A stretch of DNA of 46,706 nt from Leptolyngbyaceae cyanobacterium HOT.MB2.61 (GTDB lineage Bacteria; Cyanobacteriota; Cyanobacteriia; Leptolyngbyales; Leptolyngbyaceae), in contig JAIMBL010000011.1 in the NCBI GenBank assembly GCA_023511615.1, positions 1-46,706 on the forward strand, in the 5' to 3' direction. The notes beneath the pieces are model-generated. The model did not search any database. It was not told where the DNA came from and saw only the letters and a program-made list of their open reading frames with translations. The position numbers and the translations under genes are program-made. Below, piece by piece: positions 4,590-46,584 of this stretch. Position 1 is the stretch's first letter. The number at the start of each line of letters is the position of its first letter.

Positions 4590-4694
4590 ACAAACACGTC
4601 ATACAAACATGGCAAAAAGCTTTGCAAACCGTAATCTAGCGTTCACAGTCTAACAGCAAAGTAGCAAACAATCCGTCGGCTCCTCACGCCCTAG

Positions 4695-5297
4695 CTAATC
4701 CAGTTCGCGCCGGCCCTCCAGCGCCCTTGCCAGGGTCACTTCATCGGCATATTCCAGATCTCCCCCCATCGGCAATCCAAACGCAATTCGTGTCACTTTT
4801 GTAAAAGGTTTGAGTAGGTGACCCACGTACAGCGTCGTTGTTTCTCCCTCAACGCTGGGGCTGATTGCAATAATGACCTCTTCAATCTTCTGCTGACTGA
4901 CCCGCCGCACCAACGGTTGAATGTGAAGTTGGTCAGGACCGATACCATCCATGGGCGAAATCAAGCCACCTAAAACATGGTACTTACCCCGATACTCACG
5001 GGTTTTCTCCAGCGCAATGACATCCCTTGAATCGGCAACAACACAGATAATGTTGCTATTGCGGTTAGGATCGCGGCAAATTTCACAAACCGGCTCGGCA
5101 GATAGATGAAAGCAAACAGAACAATAGCCAACCTGCTGCTTCGCCTCCATCAGCGCCATTGCCAGAGCTTTGACTTCATCTTCCGGTCGTTTCAGAATAT
5201 GAAGAGCCAGCCGCTGGGCAGACTTAGGTCCAATCCCTGGTAGATGTTGCAATTGCTCGATTAGCCGAGCAAGAGGACGTGTATAAACCGTTGCCAT
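4695..5297 (-). CDS. recR: Recombination protein RecR
   Basis: RecR is a ring-forming DNA-binding protein that works with RecF/RecO to load RecA at gaps. The 200-residue product shows the family layout: N-terminal helix-hairpin-helix ([14 protein letters not shown]), a four-cysteine zinc finger (CSVC...CEIC), a Toprim domain starting at CVVADSRD, and a C-terminal Walker-B-like tail. The length and the start (MATVYTRPL) match the family. The gene shares its strand with the HIT gene 63 bp upstream and could be cotranscribed with it. Confidence 0.96.
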
Positions 5298-29147: not shown

Positions 29148-31346
29148 TTAATTTGGGCTGACTTCCCGCAGGTAATTGCCAGGGTTGAGGTCCTGAAGGT
29201 GAGAAACGGGAGTGGTTACAGTGCTGGAAGGATATACGGTTGTATCGAACACGGCACCCACCGATTTTGCTTCAGACGTAAGGGCAATTGGCTCTATGGG
29301 TTGCGGAGTTCCGTTTTCTTGCTGGCGTTGCAAACGGGCATACTCCTGAATTCTCTCGCGGGCTTCACCATAGGAAGGAGTGCCCAGAGGAACTTTTTTC
29401 AGCAGTGCAAGGGCGCTTGAATAGTCTTGCTCAATTGCCTCCTGACTCGCTTTTTCTACTAGGGAATCGGCCCAAACGTAAAACTTGTCGGTATACTCAG
29501 TCGTCTTTTCCTGAACTTCAGAATCCAGGGTTGTCCCTGTAGGGATTTTTTCCAGAGAAGTGATTGCCGCCAGGTAGTTGTTTTCGCTGGCCTGTCTATC
29601 GGCTGCCTCCAGTATTGCCTTGAGGCGAATTTCTTGTTTTTTGGTATACTCCTGAATTTTTTTCCGTGCCTTGTTGTAGACCCCGGTTTCTGGATTGATT
29701 TGTTTGAGGTAAGCAAGAGCACCTTCAAAATCTCGCACAGCAGCACGGTTGTAACTTTTTTGAAGTAGCGCGGTTGCCCGTACTTCTCGCTTCTGGGTGT
29801 ATTCGCGAATTTTCTCCTGCGCTACAGAGTACAGCGTAGAGTCTTCTGGAATTTGCTTCAGGATTTTAAGGGCATCTGTAAAGTCTTTGGCGATCACCGC
29901 ACTGTAAGCTTTCACCATTAATTGGGTCGCCTTGTCTTCAGCCAGTCGATTTGCGTGGGTGACAAGATCGGCTGTACGCTCTTTCCAGTAGGCGTTCTGG
30001 GGTAAGGCTTTGGCTTCCTGCAAAACCTCCTGCCATCGATTCTGTTTAAGGGCATCTACCATTTTCTGATAGATTGAGGTGGCTTCCTTCCAGTCTTGTT
30101 TCCAGGCATTCACCGCATCTCGTGCCGAGGAGTAAGCCTGACTCGTAATTGGAATCGACTCTGCCAGGCTAATGGCCTGTGGTAGCCTGCCATCCTGGTA
30201 CTGATTTCTGGCCTGCTCCAGGATTTGGGGTCCGCGATCCAACTGGTCTGGAGGATTCACCAAAAAGGCATAGCCAACCGTCGTCGCGGTCACAACTGTA
30301 CCAATCCCCAAACCCACCATCAAAGTCATCCCGTGCCGTTCAGCCGCAGAGAGCTTTTTGGCTGGGGAATGATCCGGGACGAGTTCTGCCTGAGGAGTAG
30401 GGTAGAAAATTGAATTGGGTTCTCCGGCGATCGAAAAAGCTGTTTCACTGACAGGTTTAATTGGAATGGCCTGCATGAGCTGGTGAATGGCTTCCAGTGC
30501 CTCTACTGCTGAGGCATAGCGCTGATTGCAATCCGGGTGCACCATTCGAGTCAGAATCGCAATCAGTTCCTGGTGGGCAGGAAACTCAGCCGCAGAAATC
30601 AGGGATGACCAGTGGTTTTTTCCAGTTTTCGAGGTTGCCAAAAATGAGCCAGGATGAGTACCTGTCAATGCTTGAATCGCGATGATTCCAATCGCATAAA
30701 CATCGCTGGCCAGGCAGGGCATCCCTTGTAGTTGCTCTGGCGGTTGATAGCTCTGCTCACTCCCATCCGTGGTCAGAATTGACTGGCCGTGGAGCGAAAG
30801 CAAAGACAGGTGAAGCTGTCTGACGCTATCAAAACTAACTAGAACAATCTTGCCATCCTGCGCCCGTCGAATCAAATGCTCTGGGGTCAAATTGCCGTGG
30901 CGGATACCCTGGTTATGGGCAAAGGCAAGCGGCTCCAGACTGTCTAACAATAGCTGCACTACTTCGCTTTCATCCCAGGGATGCTCTGGCTGAATTTCCA
31001 GACTCAAGGGGTAGCCATGTACAAATTCCTGAACCAGATAGAACCCCTCTTCGTCTTCAAAGCAGGCTAACAGTTGAGGAATCTGGTCATGGTCTGCCAG
31101 CTTTTCTAGAAGCGCGGCTTCCCGGACGAATAAATGTCGGATTGCATCCTGATATTCGGGTTCAACATGAATTGGTTTAACGTGCTGAATAATGCATTGA
31201 GGCTGACTGGGGCGGCGAGTGTCCTGTGCTAAATAAATTTGTCCCCACGCTTCAGTATTCAGTACCTGAACAACCCGGTACCGCCCATCTAACAGTGCTT
31301 CCAGTTCCAGGCAGGGTATCCCATCCTGCGATAGCAAGTTGGTCAT
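29148..31346 (-). CDS. Membrane-spanning pseudokinase with C-terminal repeats
   Basis: The 732-residue product begins with a Ser/Thr-kinase fold (about 20-290), a cytosolic domain ending in the usual SDVYAIG and QRYASA landmarks. All catalytic signatures are altered: the VAIK lysine position is Gln54 (CIIQ), HRD is HGN (150-152) and DFG is SFD (171-173). Catalysis is therefore unlikely and ligand or partner sensing more probable. A single membrane helix (about 340-363) leads to an extracytoplasmic region of some 370 residues. That region holds tandem units of about 47 residues (pattern DF..AL..LK.IP..T..Y..A..KI.EYT) resembling TPR/SEL-type helical repeats. It is the last of three minus-strand genes (HlyD-like, barrel, this), divergent from the tyrosine-rich peptide genes. 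Confidence 0.85.
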   Translation of the reverse strand: MTNLLSQDGIPCLELEALLDGRYRVVQVLNTEAWGQIYLAQDTRRPSQPQCIIQHVKPIHVEPEYQDAIRHLFVREAALLEKLADHDQIPQLLACFEDEEGFYLVQEFVHGYPLSLEIQPEHPWDESEVVQLLLDSLEPLAFAHNQGIRHGNLTPEHLIRRAQDGKIVLVSFDSVRQLHLSLLSLHGQSILTTDGSEQSYQPPEQLQGMPCLASDVYAIGIIAIQALTGTHPGSFLATSKTGKNHWSSLISAAEFPAHQELIAILTRMVHPDCNQRYASAVEALEAIHQLMQAIPIKPVSETAFSIAGEPNSIFYPTPQAELVPDHSPAKKLSAAERHGMTLMVGLGIGTVVTATTVGYAFLVNPPDQLDRGPQILEQARNQYQDGRLPQAISLAESIPITSQAYSSARDAVNAWKQDWKEATSIYQKMVDALKQNRWQEVLQEAKALPQNAYWKERTADLVTHANRLAEDKATQLMVKAYSAVIAKDFTDALKILKQIPEDSTLYSVAQEKIREYTQKREVRATALLQKSYNRAAVRDFEGALAYLKQINPETGVYNKARKKIQEYTKKQEIRLKAILEAADRQASENNYLAAITSLEKIPTGTTLDSEVQEKTTEYTDKFYVWADSLVEKASQEAIEQDYSSALALLKKVPLGTPSYGEARERIQEYARLQRQQENGTPQPIEPIALTSEAKSVGAVFDTTVYPSSTVTTPVSHLQDLNPGNYLREVSPN

Positions 31347-31471: not shown

Positions 31472-32095
31472 TTAGAAGCGAAAACCAACTCCCACTTGCA
31501 CCTTGACTGGAGCGGTGATGCTGAAACTTTTCTGGTCAAGGGGATATTGGGCATCGCCGTAGACAACCACTTTGTCGCTAATGGCGGCTTCTGCTCCGGC
31601 GGTTACAAAAAAGGCATCTTGATCATCGGATAGCTGGGTTTTGTTTTTTGAGTTGACGAAGGAATAGCCTGCACCTGCGTAAATGTTGGCATTACGGGCG
31701 ATCGCCAGGTCGTAGGAAATGATCGGCTGCACTACATTTGCGTCCTCGTTGAGGGTCACCTTCCCTCGAATTGAAAGGGGCAAATGGTTCAGATCGATCC
31801 GTCCCTGAAAGCCTCTACTGCCGGAAGCCTCAGCCTGGGCACCATTGGTTGCACCGGGTTGAGACCCTTGCAGGGCTTGATCGATAAACCATTTGGCAGG
31901 GGAACCCGTCTGTTGCAGGTAGTCCTGGCTCAGCCCAAACGCACCGCTGGGGTCTACGGTGACTCCCAGGTAGCTACCACTCATTCCGTAGGGTTGATTG
32001 TTGGGTTGGGCATTCACGGGTTTAGGGGCCAGACTCAGGGGCGCGATCGCCAAACCCGTTACTCCAACCAAAACCTTCAAAAAACTTGTTTTCAT
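31472..32095 (-). CDS. Small outer-membrane beta-barrel protein
   Basis: The 207-residue product has a signal peptide (cleavage near VNA-QPN, about residue 29) and then a glycine-rich region of alternating polar and hydrophobic residues typical of short beta strands. It ends in VQVGVGFRF, with the terminal Phe recognised by the BAM machinery. The size suggests an eight-stranded barrel. It follows the HlyD-type gene by 72 bp on the same strand, so it may belong to the same export unit. It is too small to be a TolC-like duct, so a role in sealing, anchoring or sensing is as likely as transport. No family name can be given. Confidence 0.8.
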   Translation of the reverse strand: MKTSFLKVLVGVTGLAIAPLSLAPKPVNAQPNNQPYGMSGSYLGVTVDPSGAFGLSQDYLQQTGSPAKWFIDQALQGSQPGATNGAQAEASGSRGFQGRIDLNHLPLSIRGKVTLNEDANVVQPIISYDLAIARNANIYAGAGYSFVNSKNKTQLSDDQDAFFVTAGAEAAISDKVVVYGDAQYPLDQKSFSITAPVKVQVGVGFRF

Positions 32096-32167: not shown

Positions 32168-33343
32168 TCACAAATCTGTCCACAACCGGGCTTTTCGGAG
32201 AAGGAATTGCAACAAGGTTTCCTGCCGAGAAATAATATCTGCTCTCACTTCCATTCCCGCCTGAAGGGGGTACTGGCGGTTATCCCTGGTCAGATAGGGT
32301 TGGTCTGGTTGAATGGTGATCTCGTAATAGGATAAGCTGCTGCCACTTCCATCCCGAAGAGTTGTGACGTCGGGAGCGATCGCCTGTACCTTTCCGGGCA
32401 ATACGCCATAGTCTGGGTAGGGATAGGCTGTAACCCGCATCTGCACCGGTTGCCCAATGGCAACTTTGCTGATGTCTTGCGTTTCTACCTGCCCTTTCAC
32501 AATCAGGGGAGCGTTTTGCGGCACAATTTGAGCGATAGGATCTCCCACTCGCAAGGGCTGTCCTGGATAGTTAACATCCAGCTTCAGCAATTTGCCGTCG
32601 GTTGGTGCTTTCACAATTTGCTTATTAATTTCGGCGGTGATTTCCCGCAAGGATTCGCCATCGTATCGGATCTGGTTTTCCAGGGCAGTGCGCTGCTGCA
32701 ACAGGCGATCGCGTCGATTTGACAGGGTTGCCCCTGATTTACCTAAGGTCTCCAGTGCCGCTTCAACCAGGGTTTTTGTCTGATCTCCAGTCTGGGCTTG
32801 GTTGTCGGAGGGAGGGGGAGTTACCTTCGCTTTGGCTAAAATTTCTCGCTCTACCGATTGAAGCTGGCTATTGACGCCTGCCAATTTGTCCTGATATTGG
32901 CGAATGTATCCTTCCAGGGTGTTCTTTTTCGCCTGCAAGACCCGGAGTCGGTTGCGATCGGCTGCAATCTCAACAATGACATCCCCCTCCCGTACCACCT
33001 GATTAGGCTGTACTTTCACGGCACTCACCGTTCCATCGATCGCCGACTGCACCACATTTAACTCCCCAACCGGGCGCACACTGGCAGAGGCTTGCACCGT
33101 CACGTTATATCTCACCAGAGCCGCCAGGGCGATTGCACCGCACAATGTACCTGCCATCAAATATCCGCCCAACACTGTCCAGCGACCGATGGGTGGAAGA
33201 AACTCTTCGCTTTGAAGCGGGGGAAGATCCGAATCCGCTGTGTCCAGTATGGCAAGGGGGCCAGGTATTGCAGAGGGACCAGGCATGCCAAGTGGACCAG
33301 GGGTCGCAGATGAACCAAACATTTTAATTAGAGGATCAGACAT
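32168..33343 (-). CDS. HlyD-family membrane fusion protein
   Basis: This is a periplasmic adaptor of a type 1-like export system, anchored by one N-terminal membrane helix (about residues 60-80). The layout is standard: lipoyl-like half motif (ASVRPVGELNVVQSAIDGTVSAVKV), long coiled-coil hairpin (about 125-245) and second half motif (VKAPTDGKLLKL), then a beta-barrel domain ending near the C-terminus. The start is ATG at 33343; an in-frame TTG lies seven codons upstream. Before the membrane helix, the N-terminal cytosolic segment has a GPL/GPS-PGP repeat. It is divergent from two GG-leader peptide genes and a C39-peptidase ABC exporter, its probable partner. Confidence 0.9.
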   Translation of the reverse strand: MSDPLIKMFGSSATPGPLGMPGPSAIPGPLAILDTADSDLPPLQSEEFLPPIGRWTVLGGYLMAGTLCGAIALAALVRYNVTVQASASVRPVGELNVVQSAIDGTVSAVKVQPNQVVREGDVIVEIAADRNRLRVLQAKKNTLEGYIRQYQDKLAGVNSQLQSVEREILAKAKVTPPPSDNQAQTGDQTKTLVEAALETLGKSGATLSNRRDRLLQQRTALENQIRYDGESLREITAEINKQIVKAPTDGKLLKLDVNYPGQPLRVGDPIAQIVPQNAPLIVKGQVETQDISKVAIGQPVQMRVTAYPYPDYGVLPGKVQAIAPDVTTLRDGSGSSLSYYEITIQPDQPYLTRDNRQYPLQAGMEVRADIISRQETLLQFLLRKARLWTDL

Positions 33344-33364
33344 CGCAGATGAACTAGGTATCAA

Positions 33365-33811: not shown

Positions 33812-34048
33812 ATGTCAGTTCTCGAGAACAATGCGCTGTTTACTGAAATAACTGCTGAAGACTCTGCCCAAATTAATGGAGGTAGACGCTATTATTACAG
33901 ACCCTGCCATACCTCCTGTTACACCTCTTGCTACAACCCCTACTACTACGGTACCAGTTACGACAGCTATGGCTACGGCTATACCTATGTTGCCGGTTAC
34001 AGCTACGTAGTTCCAACTTACACCTACTATTACTACTACCGCTATTAG
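33812..34048 (+). CDS. Tyrosine-rich double-glycine leader peptide 1
   Basis: The 78-residue precursor has a 24-residue leader ending in LFTEITAEDSAQINGG, the bacteriocin-type double-glycine pattern cut by C39 peptidases. The predicted mature peptide has 54 residues, 22 of them Tyr (41%), plus Gly, Ser, Thr and Arg, and a CX3CX3C triad (CHTSC then YTSC) near its start. There is no hydrophobic spanning segment. Translation starts at ATG 33812, 5 bp after AAGGAGA; the earlier ATG at 33797 overlaps this RBS. A terminator follows at 34130, so the gene is transcribed alone. I infer a secreted peptide; antimicrobial, signalling or matrix roles are all open. Tyrosines could be oxidatively crosslinked outside the cell. 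Confidence 0.88.
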   Translation: MSVLENNALFTEITAEDSAQINGGRRYYYRPCHTSCYTSCYNPYYYGTSYDSYGYGYTYVAGYSYVVPTYTYYYYYRY

Positions 34049-34129
34049 TCAGGCAGCATCTATCTATTTTTCTGAATCGCCTACTTTAAAGATTTTGATG
34101 ACAGATATCTGAATGAAGGAAATCAGAAA

Positions 34130-34179
34130 CCAGAAGCCAGGAGTCAGAATCGATCTGGCTTCTGGCTTTTCAATTTTTT
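34130..34179 (+). terminator. Intrinsic terminator of peptide gene 1
   Basis: An 11-bp perfect stem (34130-34140 with 34155-34165) around a 14-nt loop is followed by CTTTTCAATTTTTT. It lies 82 bp after the stop of the first peptide gene. Confidence 0.85.
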
Positions 34180-34325
34180 AGCTCTTTTCAGGTTCAAGAT
34201 TTCAGAATTGTCCGGATGGGATAAATCACCTTGGGAAATGAAGTACATGACCCTAAAGCAAAGGGTTCAAGATTTACCTCGCAAGTTCGGCAGCTTGTAT
34301 CCATTCACTACTCAAGGAGTCCATC

Positions 34326-34538
34326 ATGGAAGTCACAGCTAAGGACACAGAAAACAAAGAGCTTTTCACTGATCTGAATGAAGAAGAAGCTTCAACCGTT
34401 TCTGGTGGTCACTACTACGGTTATCGTTGCAGACGGTTTTATGGCTATCGCCCCGTCTACTACTACCACAGACCCTACTACGGCTACTACAGACCCCGCT
34501 ATCGCTATGTTGCTTACTACAGTGTCTACTACTGGTAA
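34326..34538 (+). CDS. Tyrosine-rich double-glycine leader peptide 2
   Basis: The 70-residue precursor has a 28-residue leader ending in LFTDLNEEEASTVSGG, clearly related to that of peptide 1 (LFT, acidic residues, GG). The 42-residue core contains 18 Tyr (43%), 8 Arg, one Cys, one Phe and a C-terminal Trp, so it is strongly basic and aromatic, in motifs such as YGYR, YYYHRP and YYGYYRPRYRY. AAGGAG lies 7 bp before the ATG. A strong terminator follows at 34607. Core sequences 1 and 2 differ in charge and cysteine content although the leaders match, as expected for different cargoes of one exporter. The function is unknown; export and cleavage by the adjacent C39 exporter is inferred. Confidence 0.88.
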   Translation: MEVTAKDTENKELFTDLNEEEASTVSGGHYYGYRCRRFYGYRPVYYYHRPYYGYYRPRYRYVAYYSVYYW

Positions 34539-34606: not shown

Positions 34607-34635
34607 AACACCCGCAAATTTGCGGGTGTTTTTTT
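34607..34635 (+). terminator. Strong intrinsic terminator between peptide 2 and the exporter gene
   Basis: AACACCCGCA (34607-34616) pairs exactly with TGCGGGTGTT (34621-34630) around AATT, followed directly by five more T (seven in a row). It ends the peptide 2 transcript 70 bp before the exporter start, so the exporter needs read-through or its own promoter. Confidence 0.92.
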
Positions 34636-34705: not shown

Positions 34706-36934
34706 GTGAAACAGTTTTTCAATTCGCTCTCTAAATTCACCAGCAATTTGGGGTTGCAGTATCTACCAGGGAAACAAAATAAACGAATGAAACATGCAGT
34801 GTTTCTCCAGCAGAGTGAAGAAGATTGTGGAGCGGCCTGTTTAGGGTCGATCGCCAAACATTATGGACTCACGCTCACCCTGACCCGGCTGCGAGAAGCC
34901 GTTGGCACAGGGCAACAGGGAACAACCTTGCTGGGGCTAAAACGGGGAGCGGAAGCGTTAGGCTTTAATGCCCGTTCCGTGCGAGCTTCCGCTCAAATCC
35001 TGGAGCAGATGAATGAAGCGCCGCTGCCCGCCATTATTCACTGGATGGGAAATCACTGGGTTGTCCTCTATGGGCGGGAAAAGCAGAAGTATGTGATTGT
35101 TGACCCAGCCGTAGGAGAGCGTTACCTCTCAGAAGAAGAACTGCGGGAGGGTTGGGTGGATTGGACGATGCTGCTGCTGGAGCCTGACCCTGCTCGTTTT
35201 TTTGCCCAGTCCTCGGATGAGCCGACTCGGGGAATTGGCAGCTTTATGCAGCGGATATGGCTGTATCGCTCGCTGCTGGCAGAGGTGCTGTTGATTAATG
35301 GGCTGTTGGGGTTACTGTCGATCGCTACCCCCTTTTTAATTCAGATTCTCACGGATGATGTGCTGATTCGAGGCGATCTGCGGCTATTGAATGGGCTAGC
35401 AGTTGGGGTGATTGTGCTTAACCTGTTTAGCAGTGGCCTGGAGTTGGTGCAGGCCAATTTGATTGCCTACTTTGCCCAGCGACTGGAGTTAGGACTGGTC
35501 CTGGAATTTGGGCGATCAATTTTGCGTCTGCCCCTGAACTATTACGAAACCCGCCGCAGTGGAGAGGTGGTCAGCCGTTTACGTGATATTCAAGACCTTA
35601 ACCAGCTAGTTTCGCAGGTGGTAGTCAGTCTACCCAGCCAGATTTTTATTGCGATCGTTTCCCTGATTCTGATGCTGATATTTAGCTGGAAGTTGACCCT
35701 TGTGGCTCTTTGCATTGCCCTGCTGATGATGATTTCTACCGTAGTTTTTCTGCCGACTTTGCAGCAAAAGACCCGCAACCTGCTGGTGTTGGAAGCCGAG
35801 AATCAAGGCGTGCTGGTAGAGACATTCAAGGGTGCGTTGACTCTGAAAACAACGACAGCAACCAACCAGTTTTGGGAAGAATTTCAGAGTCGGTTTGGTC
35901 GATTAGCCAACTTAACCCTGCGCACCACTCAAATTGGCATTATTAACAATACCTTTTCTAGCCTGGTCTCTGCGATTGGGGCAGTTGTGCTGCTGTGGTT
36001 TGGCAGTAGTCTGGTGATTAGCCAGGAACTATCGATTGGTCAATTATTAGCTTTTGCCAGTTTTAATACGAATGTCACCACTTTGATTGGTACGGTGGTC
36101 AAGTTTACCGATGAGTTTGCCCGCGTTAAAACGGCAAGCCAGCGTTTGAATGAGGTGATTGAACACCCTACCGAAACCCAGGGAGACGCTGCCAGGCCCT
36201 TCGTCTGCATTCCACCAGAGGCAGAAATTGAGTGCGATCGCCTCACCTTCCACTACCCCGGTCGCGTTGATCTGCTGGATGATTTTTCATTGCGGCTACC
36301 CGGAGGAGCCGTAATTGCGCTGATTGGCAAATCAGGCTGTGGCAAAAGTACGCTGGCAAAACTGATTGCCGGACTGTACACCCTCCAGTCTGGCAATATT
36401 CGAATAGGTGGCTACAATCTTCAGGATCTATCCCTGGAGTGCCTGCGGCGGCAGGTGGTGCTGGTGCCCCAGGATGCCCACTTCTGGAGTCGTTCAATCC
36501 TGGCAAACTTTCGCCTGGGTACGCCGGATGTCTCCTTTGAAGAAATTGTCCACGTCTGCCAGGTAACGGGAGCCGATGAATTTATCAGCCGCTTACCTGA
36601 GAAGTATCAAACTATCCTGGGTGAGTTTGGGGCCAACCTGTCGGGTGGTCAGCGGCAGCGATTAGCGATCGCCCGTGCCCTGATCAACGATCCCCCCATT
36701 TTGATTCTGGATGAATCGACGGCTGGCTTAGATCCTCTCAGTGAGACCGAAGTTCTGGATCAGTTGCTCCACTACCGCCAGGGCAGAACCACGATTCTGA
36801 TCAGCCACCGTCCTAGAGTCATTAATCGCGCTGATTGGATTGTGCTGTTAGACCAGGGAAAACTGGTGACTCAGGGCAGTCTCAAACATCTACAATCCCA
36901 ACTTGGCGAACACTTGGACTTTTTGACTCCATAG
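34706..36934 (+). CDS. C39 peptidase-containing ABC exporter (PCAT)
   Basis: This inner-membrane exporter cleaves double-glycine leaders and pumps out the core peptide. From the chosen GTG start (GGGAGG 7 bp upstream) it has 742 residues. The C39 peptidase (about 30-160) has Cys41 in EEDCGAACL, His117 in NHWVVL and Asp133 in VIVDPA. Six membrane spans follow (about 185-460). The ATPase domain has Walker A GKSGCGKST, signature LSGGQRQR and Walker B ILILDEST. An alternative start at ATG 34787 would begin only 13 residues before the catalytic Cys. Two GG-leader precursors lie directly upstream and an HlyD-type adaptor is divergent, so substrates and partner are apparent. The layout resembles the cyanobacterial PteB/EbfG biofilm-peptide systems, by analogy only. 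Confidence 0.95.
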   Translation: MKQFFNSLSKFTSNLGLQYLPGKQNKRMKHAVFLQQSEEDCGAACLGSIAKHYGLTLTLTRLREAVGTGQQGTTLLGLKRGAEALGFNARSVRASAQILEQMNEAPLPAIIHWMGNHWVVLYGREKQKYVIVDPAVGERYLSEEELREGWVDWTMLLLEPDPARFFAQSSDEPTRGIGSFMQRIWLYRSLLAEVLLINGLLGLLSIATPFLIQILTDDVLIRGDLRLLNGLAVGVIVLNLFSSGLELVQANLIAYFAQRLELGLVLEFGRSILRLPLNYYETRRSGEVVSRLRDIQDLNQLVSQVVVSLPSQIFIAIVSLILMLIFSWKLTLVALCIALLMMISTVVFLPTLQQKTRNLLVLEAENQGVLVETFKGALTLKTTTATNQFWEEFQSRFGRLANLTLRTTQIGIINNTFSSLVSAIGAVVLLWFGSSLVISQELSIGQLLAFASFNTNVTTLIGTVVKFTDEFARVKTASQRLNEVIEHPTETQGDAARPFVCIPPEAEIECDRLTFHYPGRVDLLDDFSLRLPGGAVIALIGKSGCGKSTLAKLIAGLYTLQSGNIRIGGYNLQDLSLECLRRQVVLVPQDAHFWSRSILANFRLGTPDVSFEEIVHVCQVTGADEFISRLPEKYQTILGEFGANLSGGQRQRLAIARALINDPPILILDESTAGLDPLSETEVLDQLLHYRQGRTTILISHRPRVINRADWIVLLDQGKLVTQGSLKHLQSQLGEHLDFLTP

Positions 36935-41270: not shown

Positions 41271-41507
41271 GGATTTCAGGAAAAAAGAATTTAAGAGACT
41301 AGAGACCAGCGGTTGGGGACTAATCTATTCCCTAGCCCCTAGCCCCTAGCCCCTCCTCCTTGTTATGAAAATTTAACAGATAAAGTGTGGCTGGAAGTAG
41401 GCTGAAGTCGCGTACTCTGGTTATTGTCTTGATGGCATCCGCTCAATCAGGAGGTGTCCTGTGAGGTGATTGCCCGGAAATTGCTCCATGCTGAGGATAC
41501 TTCATCC

Positions 41508-43265
41508 ATGACATACCTCAACGCCATTTCCTTCTTCGGCATTTTAGGTCTCTGCCTGATTGCCTGGGCATTTTCGGAAGACCGGAGGGTTATTCCCTGG
41601 CGGGTTATTATCGGTGGCATAGGATTGCAACTGGTTTTGGGCTTCTTTGTATTTCAGTTTCCGGCAACCAGGGAGCTTTTAAAGATATTCAGTGGCTTAC
41701 TCGACAGCATCTTCACTGCAGCTGATGCGGGTGCCCGGTTTGTGTTTGGGCCAAATCTGGTCCCGTTACCGGGGCAAGACCCATTGATCGTTCGTCCTTT
41801 GCCTCCTGGTGCGACGGCCTGTCCACCTCCTCAGGTTCCCTTTATCCCAGGCTACTGTGGTACGGACAAGCTGAACTATATCCTGGCATTTCGGGCATTG
41901 CCAGCAGTTATCTTTTTCTCTGGTTTAATGTCTCTGTTGTATAACCTGGGTGTGATTCAGGCAATTACTAGCGTGTTTGCCAGGGTGTTTTATCGAACGA
42001 TGCGCCTGAGTGGGGCAGAGTCTTTAAGTGGGGCCGCCAATATTTTTGTAGGAATTGAGGCGGCGATCGCAGTCAAACCCTATATTCCCAAAATGACTCG
42101 CAGCGAATTGTGCGCAATTCTGGCCTGTTGTTTTGGAACGGCGGCCTCATCCACCCTGGCTATCTACGTCAGCTACCTCAGGCCGGTTTTCCCAAACATT
42201 TTGGGGCATCTGGTTTCAGCTTCAATCATGGCAATCCCCGCCTGTTTTGTCCTGTCTAAGATTCTGGTGCCAGAAACCGGTGTACCAGTAACGATGGGCG
42301 GTATTCCGGAGGAAGAGAAGCCCGTGCGCGGAACTGAACTTGAAGCGGTGGAAGAGGCAGAGCGGCGGGAAAATATTGCTGAAAAAATTGAAGAGCGCTA
42401 TCCCCAAACTAAAATCCAGTCAGACGAAGACGATTCAACTTATGAGGGGCTGAAGGAGACGGCAGGTGGAGAACCAATTGAACGAGTCAGCCCAATGGAT
42501 GCGGCCATACTGGGGGCGTTGGATGGGGTCAAGATGGCGGTATCTATCGCTGCTGTGCTGATTTTGATTTTGGGCCTGGTTTCCCTGATTAATCAACTCT
42601 TTGCTGGGCTGGCAGAGCTCCCCAATCCTATTGGTTCATTCTTTAAGGTTGTTACCCTGCAAAATATTTTGGGCTTTCTGTTTGTGCCTGTCACGCTTTT
42701 GACTGGGGTTTCCCTGGACTCCAATGAGCTCTGGAAGTCCTCAGTGATTATTGGACGGCGCTTGTTTGAAACTGCGATTCCGCCCTATCAAGAACTGGGA
42801 CGAGCAGCAGCAGCGGGAGAGTTGAGCGATCGCGCCATTCTCATCATCAGCTATGCCCTTTCTGGCTTTGCTCACATCGCTTCCGTGGGCATCTTTGTGG
42901 GAGGTACCATAGCCCTGGCTCCCTCCCGCCGCAAAGATATTTCCCAACTGGGCTGGAAAGCTCTATTTGTCGGCACCCTGGCAACGATTATGATCGCCTG
43001 CATCGCAGGTTTTTATGACAACGGCAATCCCAGCATTTTAGGTCAGAAAGCTCCTCCTGCACCCGCAGCCAGTCCCGCCCCCGTTCCGGCTTCTCCTTCA
43101 CCCACAATTTCTCCCACTACCAGTCCGATCGCTTCTCCTACCGTAACCCCATCCCCACGACTGACTCCTTCCCCCGCTACCACCGGAGCGACCCCCCAAA
43201 GCACAATTAGTCCCGTGCCCGTTCTGACTCCCAGCCCAACCCCTACGCAATCGCCCACTCCTTGA
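41508..43265 (+). CDS. CNT-family (NupC-like) transporter, copy 1, with Pro/Thr/Ser tail
   Basis: This is an inner-membrane cation-coupled transporter of the concentrative nucleoside family. The core (about residues 1-510) has the family's N-terminal spans, gate region and C-terminal core with hairpin segments. LSGAESLSGAANIFVGIEA and SGFAHIASVGIFVGG replace the nucleoside-binding GQTE and GFANFSS patterns, so the substrate may not be a nucleoside. A charged cytosolic loop (about 285-340) is longer than in copy 2, and a Pro/Ser/Thr-rich tail of about 65 residues is added. The ATG at 41508 aligns with copy 2; however, the perfect AGGAGG at 41449-41454 favours an in-frame GTG at 41466. A DUF2079 gene follows after 115 bp. 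Confidence 0.88.
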   Translation: MTYLNAISFFGILGLCLIAWAFSEDRRVIPWRVIIGGIGLQLVLGFFVFQFPATRELLKIFSGLLDSIFTAADAGARFVFGPNLVPLPGQDPLIVRPLPPGATACPPPQVPFIPGYCGTDKLNYILAFRALPAVIFFSGLMSLLYNLGVIQAITSVFARVFYRTMRLSGAESLSGAANIFVGIEAAIAVKPYIPKMTRSELCAILACCFGTAASSTLAIYVSYLRPVFPNILGHLVSASIMAIPACFVLSKILVPETGVPVTMGGIPEEEKPVRGTELEAVEEAERRENIAEKIEERYPQTKIQSDEDDSTYEGLKETAGGEPIERVSPMDAAILGALDGVKMAVSIAAVLILILGLVSLINQLFAGLAELPNPIGSFFKVVTLQNILGFLFVPVTLLTGVSLDSNELWKSSVIIGRRLFETAIPPYQELGRAAAAGELSDRAILIISYALSGFAHIASVGIFVGGTIALAPSRRKDISQLGWKALFVGTLATIMIACIAGFYDNGNPSILGQKAPPAPAASPAPVPASPSPTISPTTSPIASPTVTPSPRLTPSPATTGATPQSTISPVPVLTPSPTPTQSPTP

Positions 43266-45129: not shown

Positions 45130-46584
45130 ATGCCCTGGCTCAATCTACTTTCTCTAGTTGGAATTCTTGCCTTTTGTGGAATTGCCTGGTTGGGGTCTGA
45201 AAACCGTCGGGTAGTTCCCTGGAAGGTGATTGTCTGGGGAATTGGGCTACAACTGGTGTTGGGGTTTCTGGTTTTTTGGGTGCCGTTTACGCGGGATGCG
45301 ATCGTGGTGCTGAATGATGCTGCCAATGCAGTACTGGATGCAACGGAAAAGGGAGCCCGATTTGTATTTGGTTCAGTTCTGGTACCCGATCGCACCAGCA
45401 CCCCTGGTCCTGTTCTGGTAGGACGCTGGATTGCCAGGGCAATCACGCCGCCCTACGTACCCGTACCGGGAGACTATCTCGGCCCCGAAAATATCAGTCT
45501 GGGTTACATCCTGGCATTTCGGGCATTGCCCAGTGTCATCTTTTTCTCGGCAGTGATGGCACTCTTTTATGCCTTGGGCCTGATTCAACCGATTGTTAAC
45601 CTGTTTGCTCGCCTGTTTCGCCGCACCATGAACCTGAGTGGGGCCGAGTCCCTCAGTGGGGCAGCCAATATTTTTGTGGGCATTGAAGCCACGCTGGTGG
45701 TGCGCCCCTATCTGGCAGCCATGACTCGGAGCGAACTCTGCGCCATTCTGACTTCTTGCTTTGGTAGCATTGCCTCAACGGTTCTGGCCGCCTATGCTGG
45801 ATTTTTGCGCCCCGTTTTTCCTAACATCACCGGGCATCTGGTTTCTGCCTCAATCATGGCGATTCCGGCCTGTTTCGTCATCTCCAAAATTCTGGTTCCA
45901 GAAATGGAGGTACCGAAGACCCTTGGCACTGCAATTGAGGAGAAAACTGAACCACTTGATCCCGATGGGGAGCCTTCGGATACAGCGAAATCTGCCTGGC
46001 TCAGTCCAATGGAAAGCCTGGTGGTTGGTGCTCTGGATGGGGTGAAACTGGCAGTCGCGATCGCCGCCCTGCTGATTGCGATTCTGGGTCTGGTGGCAAT
46101 CATCAACCTGTTCTTTGCCAACCTGGCATCCCTTTCCCTCAGCCAAAACCTGGTACTTCAGGGCATTGGTCACGTATTTCAGGTCGTCACGCTACAGAAT
46201 ATTGTGGGTGTGCTGTTCATGCCACTGACCTTTCTGACGGGGGTTTCCCTCAACCCCAATGAACTGTGGCAGGCATCCCGCCTTATTGGTCAGCGCCTTC
46301 TGGAAACTGAGATCCCTTCCTACCTTCAACTTGCCGCGTTAGCAGACCAGGGAGTGTTGGGCGATCGCGCCCTCCTGGTGGTCAGCTATGCCCTTTGTGG
46401 CTTTGCCCATCTGGCCTCGGTGGGTATCTTTGTTGGTGGCTTGGTGGGACTTGTGCCCTCGCGCCGTAAGGACATTACCGAACTGGGTTGGAAAGCACTC
46501 TGGGGAGCCACCCTGGCAACTATGATGATTGGGGCAGTTGCCGGACTGTTTGATCTGGGAAACCCCGCTATTATTGGGAGATGA
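45130..46584 (+). CDS. CNT-family (NupC-like) transporter, copy 2
   Basis: The 484-residue paralogue of the gene at 41508 has the same core and no Pro-rich tail. Conserved segments include LSGAESLSGAANIFVGIEA, MTRSELCAIL, GHLVSASIMAIPACFV and GFAHLASVGIFVGG. As in copy 1, the usual nucleoside-contact residues are substituted while the glutamate in VGIEA remains. The central charged loop is short. The start is set by alignment with copy 1; no Shine-Dalgarno is present because tandem heptamers fill that position. A new frame starts 3 bp after the stop. Confidence 0.9.
   Translation: MPWLNLLSLVGILAFCGIAWLGSENRRVVPWKVIVWGIGLQLVLGFLVFWVPFTRDAIVVLNDAANAVLDATEKGARFVFGSVLVPDRTSTPGPVLVGRWIARAITPPYVPVPGDYLGPENISLGYILAFRALPSVIFFSAVMALFYALGLIQPIVNLFARLFRRTMNLSGAESLSGAANIFVGIEATLVVRPYLAAMTRSELCAILTSCFGSIASTVLAAYAGFLRPVFPNITGHLVSASIMAIPACFVISKILVPEMEVPKTLGTAIEEKTEPLDPDGEPSDTAKSAWLSPMESLVVGALDGVKLAVAIAALLIAILGLVAIINLFFANLASLSLSQNLVLQGIGHVFQVVTLQNIVGVLFMPLTFLTGVSLNPNELWQASRLIGQRLLETEIPSYLQLAALADQGVLGDRALLVVSYALCGFAHLASVGIFVGGLVGLVPSRRKDITELGWKALWGATLATMMIGAVAGLFDLGNPAIIGR

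Follow-up and report, generated by a model that had tools for sequence, protein, structure and literature searches.

The two small precursors P1 and P2, encoded by a stretch of 46,706 nucleotides from the filamentous Leptolyngbyaceae cyanobacterium HOT.MB2.61 (hereafter, the window), are probably an extracellular building material of an undescribed type, and not an ordinary antibiotic. The more specific reading that we favour, and to which we give about an even chance, is that both act as small structural peptides secreted by PteB-type export, i.e., a Tyr/Arg 'sticker' cargo that assembles outside the cell. The predicted export of both peptides by the neighbouring PCAT (peptidase-containing ABC transporter) is well supported; their cleavage, secretion, assembly and matrix function are what we infer for the later steps.

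The P1/P2 locus

P1 and P2 sit between a divergent HlyD gene and the PCAT gene (Table 1), and a Shine-Dalgarno-like AGGAG is found a few bases 5' of the ATG in both. Tyr makes up ~40% of both cores, versus 2.5% in neighbouring genes (binomial p for the core counts of ~3e-21 for P1 and ~4e-18 for P2). The P1 core contains 22 Tyr out of 54 residues, Cys at core positions 8, 12 and 16 (CHTSCYTSC, i.e., CX3CX3C) and a YYYYY run close to its C-terminus, and the 42-residue P2 core contains 18 Tyr, 8 Arg and 1 Cys, with Trp as its last residue. The original prediction is exact as regards the composition of the cores, the Cys spacing and the Trp end. The share of TAC among the Tyr codons (15/22 in P1 and 13/18 in P2) is higher than in neighbouring genes (66/138). 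In a six-frame scan of the window, the P1 and P2 cores are the sole Tyr-rich open frames, and no third precursor with a P1/P2-type leader was found genome-wide. AlphaFold, using an alignment of only 15 sequences, gives no fold for P2 (pLDDT 52, pTM 0.12), as would be expected for a disordered peptide.

Table 1. Coordinates of the precursors, the export genes and the flanking features in the window.
Feature	Position	Strand	Description
Precursor P1	33812..34048	+	GG leader (24 aa) and 54-aa core
P1 leader	33812..33883	+	24 aa, ends QINGG; ends ...LFTEITAEDSAQINGG; leader HMM score 40.2
Intrinsic terminator after P1	34132..34170	+	17-bp stem, T-rich tail; -26 kcal/mol, z -5.6
Precursor P2	34326..34538	+	GG leader (28 aa) and 42-aa core
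P2 leader	34326..34409	+	28 aa, ends TVSGG; ends ...LFTDLNEEEASTVSGG; leader HMM score 37.8
Terminator-like hairpin and T-run between P2 and PCAT	34607..34634	+	-22.1 kcal/mol, z -4.8
PCAT (C39 peptidase, ABC membrane, ABC ATPase), PteB orthologue	34787..36934	+	Pfam; 4ry2 alignment; tree
HlyD-family periplasmic adaptor	32168..33364	-	Divergent from precursors
Ser/Thr-kinase-like protein, C-terminal repeats	29148..31346	-	Neighbour kept in several loci of the window's clade (L024, L027, L028, L029)

The exporter is of the short type, consisting of C39, ABC membrane and ATPase domains with no CAP_ED domain detected by Pfam, and it aligns over its length with the solved structure of C. thermocellum PCAT1 (4ry2; residues 7-702, E 1e-111). 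The listed open reading frame opens upstream, at a TTG (34586), and crosses the terminator-like hairpin. The true start is probably near 34787, since the alignment of relatives begins at this position and since the hairpin and its T-run lie inside the longer TTG frame. P1 and P2 are probably transcribed apart from the exporter, because terminators stand between them; a similar hairpin is present 3' of P2 in a same-genus relative (L023). Separate transcription would permit unequal amounts of precursor and exporter.

Several other genes were noted in the window and at related loci. An outer-membrane beta-barrel protein is encoded between HlyD and the kinase-like gene (31472-32095, minus strand); it is probably not part of the export system, because it is not found at the related family loci L021-L031. 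A gene for a small putative lipoprotein, whose signal ends LTGCSTEAPAKSS in L025, lies immediately 3' of the exporter in six loci of the window's clade (L024-L029) and was not found in the window. Farther along the window, paralogous nucleoside-transporter-like genes (41454-43265 and 45130-46584) stand on either side of an unrelated membrane protein, and PECFPTQFGN is repeated in a frame on the minus strand at the end of the contig (46339-46704), which suggests that the contig breaks inside a repeat.

Tyrosine-rich cores in relatives

Similar precursors were found in about ten of 42 same-family genomes, mostly beside orthologous exporters, the usual gene order being kinase (-), HlyD (-), precursor(s) (+) and PCAT (+). 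When 84,980 species genomes were searched with the exporter alignment, 80 loci emerged, four of which are duplicates of same-family loci, and precursors were recovered from these loci by leader-profile search and six-frame translation. Tyr-rich cores are present 5' of orthologous PCATs in Leptolyngbya-like cyanobacteria and in Oscillatoriales (Microcoleus, Tychonema, Kamptonema, Microseira, Phormidium, Okeania, Trichodesmium and others), and Tyr/Arg-rich peptides stand beside the same exporter in relatives from about a dozen genera, the number of precursors per locus ranging from one to four. Within the genus, a P1 orthologue (L022) has 36% Tyr and a single Cys, and a P2 orthologue (L023) adjoins the PCAT. 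PCAT orthology does not fix the function of the cargo, because the same orthologue group exports ordinary hydrophobic cores in Nostocales. HlyD is divergent at every Tyr-rich locus where it was found, and mostly on the same strand in Nostocales. Tyr-rich loci fall in two or more regions of the exporter tree, and a single origin is not rejected (AU p 0.51).

Two further kinds of GG peptide were seen during this survey. Komarekiella and Nostoc (L105, 11350; L107, 10958) carry, close to another branch of this exporter group, a GG-leader peptide whose core is rich in Tyr, Asp and Lys and ends RRRYRCCYYSWYPCKKY; it is possibly an independent Tyr-rich cargo. In L031 (9433-9618, minus strand), an orphan GG peptide has a His/Trp/Arg-rich core (YHGHGHHHGHHGHWRRPWHHRRHCYWRHHRRHCYYPY), with no exporter nearby, and could bind metal.

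The composition of the Tyr-rich set, defined as the 55 distinct cores with at least 15% Tyr, is highly constrained. Tyr ranges from 16 to 44% (median 26%), Arg and Lys number 453 and 10, respectively, Ala, Ile, Leu and Glu are scarce, and the median net charge is +7. At least one Cys is present in 54/55 of these cores versus 2/41 in ordinary-core loci (Fisher 3e-23), and the C-terminal residue is aromatic in 42 of the 55. Base composition is ruled out as the cause of the Lys deficit: the exporters of AT-rich Okeania and Trichodesmium are not Lys-poor (Lys 245, Arg 283), whereas the cores contain 9 Lys versus 149 Arg.

The P2 core is under purifying selection. It is 92% identical to that of the same-genus orthologue (dN 0.095, dS 1.05, dN/dS ~0.09), with a less conserved leader (71%). 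The suggestion that leaders are conserved while cores diverge is therefore correct between the paralogues P1 and P2, but not for this orthologue, whose core is the more conserved part. Given the family-wide composition rule, the Lys deficit beyond base composition and the low dN/dS of the P2 core, the composition is maintained and not drifting. A strain-specific low-complexity expansion, with ordinary cores in the homologues, had been named as the finding that would speak against a special composition; it is rejected, as the 55 Tyr-rich cores include orthologues from many genera and as dN/dS is low in P2. What was first noticed as unusual in the window, compared to ordinary bacteriocin cores, is thus a class property conserved across many genera. 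The proposed functional CX3CX3C triad fared differently: it is present in only 2 of the 55 cores, P1 and a core from one other genus (L021), so that a conserved metal or heme site is rejected, and the conserved feature is at least one Cys per core.

As to the arrangement of residues within cores, Tyr alternation (lag 2) is not enriched (z ~0), and a simple cross-beta strand built on such alternation is thus not retained. In the 55 cores, two Tyr stand three residues apart less often (z ~-4.5), and eight residues apart more often (z ~2.8), than in shuffled versions of these cores. In L024-L027 and L029, and in the second precursor of L021, P1- and P2-type cores share a C-terminal S[VI]xQ[ST][VT]NVN[VI]...[DN]D stretch after the Tyr/Gly-rich part; it looks like a beta-strand module and is missing in the window cores. 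One Tyr-rich core differs between two Trichodesmium genomes (L043 and L074, precursor cores at ~4626-4826 and ~4744-4965) by ~19 nonsynonymous changes and 1 synonymous change (dN 0.21, dS 0.04), a pattern that, unlike that of the window's genus, could reflect diversifying or relaxed selection, or an alignment error.

Among 33 Tyr-rich loci, the widely recurring families are the exporter (33 loci), the precursors (32) and HlyD (27). Most of the remaining recurrent clusters correspond to alternative frames of these genes, and a few others are neighbours common to close relatives.

A proposed structural role and its alternatives

If P1 and P2 are structural peptides, they would be made with double-glycine leaders, cleaved after GG by the adjacent PCAT and exported via the PCAT and the HlyD adaptor, with a gene located elsewhere supplying the outer-membrane channel. 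In the extracellular space, the disordered cores, rich in Tyr and Arg, nearly devoid of Lys and mostly carrying one or three Cys, would stick to one another by Tyr-Arg cation-pi and Tyr-Tyr contacts. Their Arg would probably bind acidic exopolysaccharide, and intermolecular disulfides, possibly with dityrosine, could lock the cores together. The assembled peptides would then form part of the sheath or biofilm matrix, as EbfG1-4 do for the orthologous PteB. Arg-Tyr cation-pi contacts drive condensates, and the preference for Arg over Lys corresponds to what Tyr-Arg sticker chemistry predicts (PMC6606616).

A broader and clearly more tentative proposal is that such peptides make up a widespread and hitherto undescribed class of extracellular 'stickers' of bacterial origin: short, disordered, Tyr/Arg-rich, nearly Lys-free and Cys-lockable, they would be exported by PteB-type systems and would condense extracellularly to a gel, coat or glue, as a bacterial counterpart of reflectin-like and high-Gly-Tyr materials. 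A diatom Tyr-rich protein that was suspected of adhesion turned out to be a cell-wall component (PMC4220933), which calls for caution against assuming a glue.

The main rival, rather unlikely in our judgement, is that P1 and P2 are cationic Gly/Tyr/Arg-rich antimicrobial peptides of the unmodified bacteriocin or microcin type, directed against competitors. A GG leader and a C39 exporter are both present, which is classic for class II bacteriocins and microcins, the net charge is ~+7, some pairs of cores diversify fast, and such cyanobacterial clusters are catalogued as bacteriocin clusters (PMC3140520). At the 33 Tyr-rich loci, however, no immunity gene recurs, within the limits of a survey that ORFs below 50 aa or fast-diverging genes could escape, and neither P1 nor P2 matches a Pfam or curated bacteriocin model above cut-off. 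The P2 core is nearly fixed within the genus, and the orthologous exporter serves biofilm proteins. Moreover, Lys is almost absent from the cores, whereas antimicrobial peptides normally use both Lys and Arg.

The extreme Tyr content, together with the Tyr-rich surface proteins in the cell wall of a benthic diatom (PMC4220933), could alternatively point to a structural peptide with covalent modifications or crosslinks, its Tyr being oxidised (to dityrosine or DOPA) by a dedicated or general oxidase. We hold this to be improbable, as the 33 loci, covered out to ~7 kb from the PCAT, show no recurring enzyme for tyrosine oxidation, nor any other oxidase, peroxidase, radical SAM enzyme or further tailoring enzyme (ORFs of at least 50 aa). 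In addition, the cores are depleted in Lys, with which DOPA chemistry is usually paired in mussel glues. No NHLP or Nif11 leader model matches P1 or P2 among the NCBIfam results.

The Cys residues might instead make P1 and P2 metal- or heme-binding, or redox-active, secreted peptides, acting through the Cys triad and, in relatives, through His-rich cores. The near-constant presence of Cys, the CX3CX3C motif shared by P1 and L021, a CX6CX3C motif in L025 and L026 and the His/Trp/Arg-rich orphan of L031 are consistent with this idea; we nevertheless consider it quite improbable, since most Tyr-rich cores have a single Cys and since the P1 orthologue from the genus of the window lacks the triad. 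Finally, an extracellular signal, a role that GG peptides play in Gram-positive bacteria and that is suspected for the substrate of HetC, a cyanobacterial PCAT tied to differentiation (PMC10986499), is very hard to reconcile with low-complexity cores that have no fixed motif, occur several per locus and are conserved across genera in composition and not in sequence, all of which would make poor receptor ligands.

The structural reading bears on the way in which clusters of this type are classified. They have been filed as bacteriocin clusters; here, the exporter is a PteB orthologue and the cargo obeys one strict rule of composition throughout the family: Tyr and Arg are favoured, Lys is nearly absent, one Cys or more is present and the last residue is usually aromatic. 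Should the cores condense or gel extracellularly, Tyr-Arg sticker chemistry would become open to study in a bacterium amenable to genetics, the sheaths and mats of Microcoleus, Okeania and Trichodesmium would have a likely protein component, and short self-assembling peptides could be drawn from this source as materials. Whether many cyanobacterial 'bacteriocins' are in fact matrix proteins can likewise be tested with the Tyr-rich system.

Comparison with known systems

In composition only, the Tyr-rich cores resemble two groups of animal proteins. High-glycine-tyrosine keratin-associated proteins are rich in Gly, Tyr and Cys, depleted in Lys, Leu, Ile and Ala, and self-assembling. Reflectins lack Lys, Leu, Ile and Ala, are rich in Trp, Arg, Met and Tyr, and also self-assemble (PMC9779258). 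Neither group is related to the Tyr-rich cores by descent. Among bacteriocin families, CTB (NF038167, NCBIfam) shows a faint resemblance restricted to the GG leader (12.5 bits, far below the cut-off of 32), with unrelated cores.

In the openly accessible literature, supplements aside, we came across no account of cyanobacterial GG peptides that form a Tyr/Arg-rich class. Clusters with the same architecture as that of the window, i.e., a short-type C39 ABC exporter, HlyD and several GG precursors, were catalogued in 2011 as group III cyanobacterial 'bacteriocins' by Wang, Fewer and Sivonen (PMC3140520), with one cluster each in S. elongatus and T. erythraeum. In the parts of that article drawn on here, group III cores are rich in Gly, Cys, Ser and Thr, and its text there does not describe a Tyr/Arg-rich class.

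The closest system is that of EbfG1-4 and PteB in Synechococcus elongatus PCC 7942, whose locus (L113) was found via the published mature EbfG1 peptide (PMC4997328). PteB and the window PCAT are 53% identical. In a tree with paralogous PCATs (from the window's own and other genomes) as outgroup, the two are grouped with a support of 100, the PteB branch being long, and profile A1 scores PteB at 993 bits and other PCATs at 515 or less. On these grounds, the window PCAT is placed in the orthologue group of PteB, and the window contains the elements of a PteB-type PCAT export system (Wang group III): a short-type exporter of the PteB group, with adjacent HlyD and GG precursors. Secretion of EbfG1-4 requires PteB (PMC4997328), EbfG1-3 form amyloid, and EbfG4 is found at the surface and in the matrix (PMC9981879). 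The early preference for a structural over a bacteriocin role is thus favoured by an exporter that is orthologous to the secretor of structural biofilm proteins.

Like the window, S. elongatus has a C39 exporter of this group, several small GG-leader precursors directly upstream and HlyD nearby; a further likeness is that the Tyr of EbfG1 and EbfG2 is gathered near the mature N-terminus. The HlyD of S. elongatus, however, is downstream and on the same strand, whereas that of the window is divergent. The cargo differs further. Unlike the Tyr-rich cores, EbfG cores are 0-8% Tyr, lack Cys and contain little Arg. The A-Phi-N-I amyloid hotspot of EbfG is not present in P1 or P2, and a profile of related cores scores EbfG1-4 no better than shuffles, so that it gives no core homology. 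The C-terminal SVxQ[ST]VNVNV motif of Leptolyngbya relatives was considered as a sign of EbfG homology and rejected, as its profile scores are no better than those of shuffled sequences; a [SG][VI]xQSV stretch in each of EbfG1-3, spotted post hoc, is a lead only. Function is carried over from EbfG by exporter orthology only, because of the differing EbfG cores and the absence of a profile match. Judged from sequence, the export system of the window is of the same kind as that of PteB, and its cargo is of a different kind.
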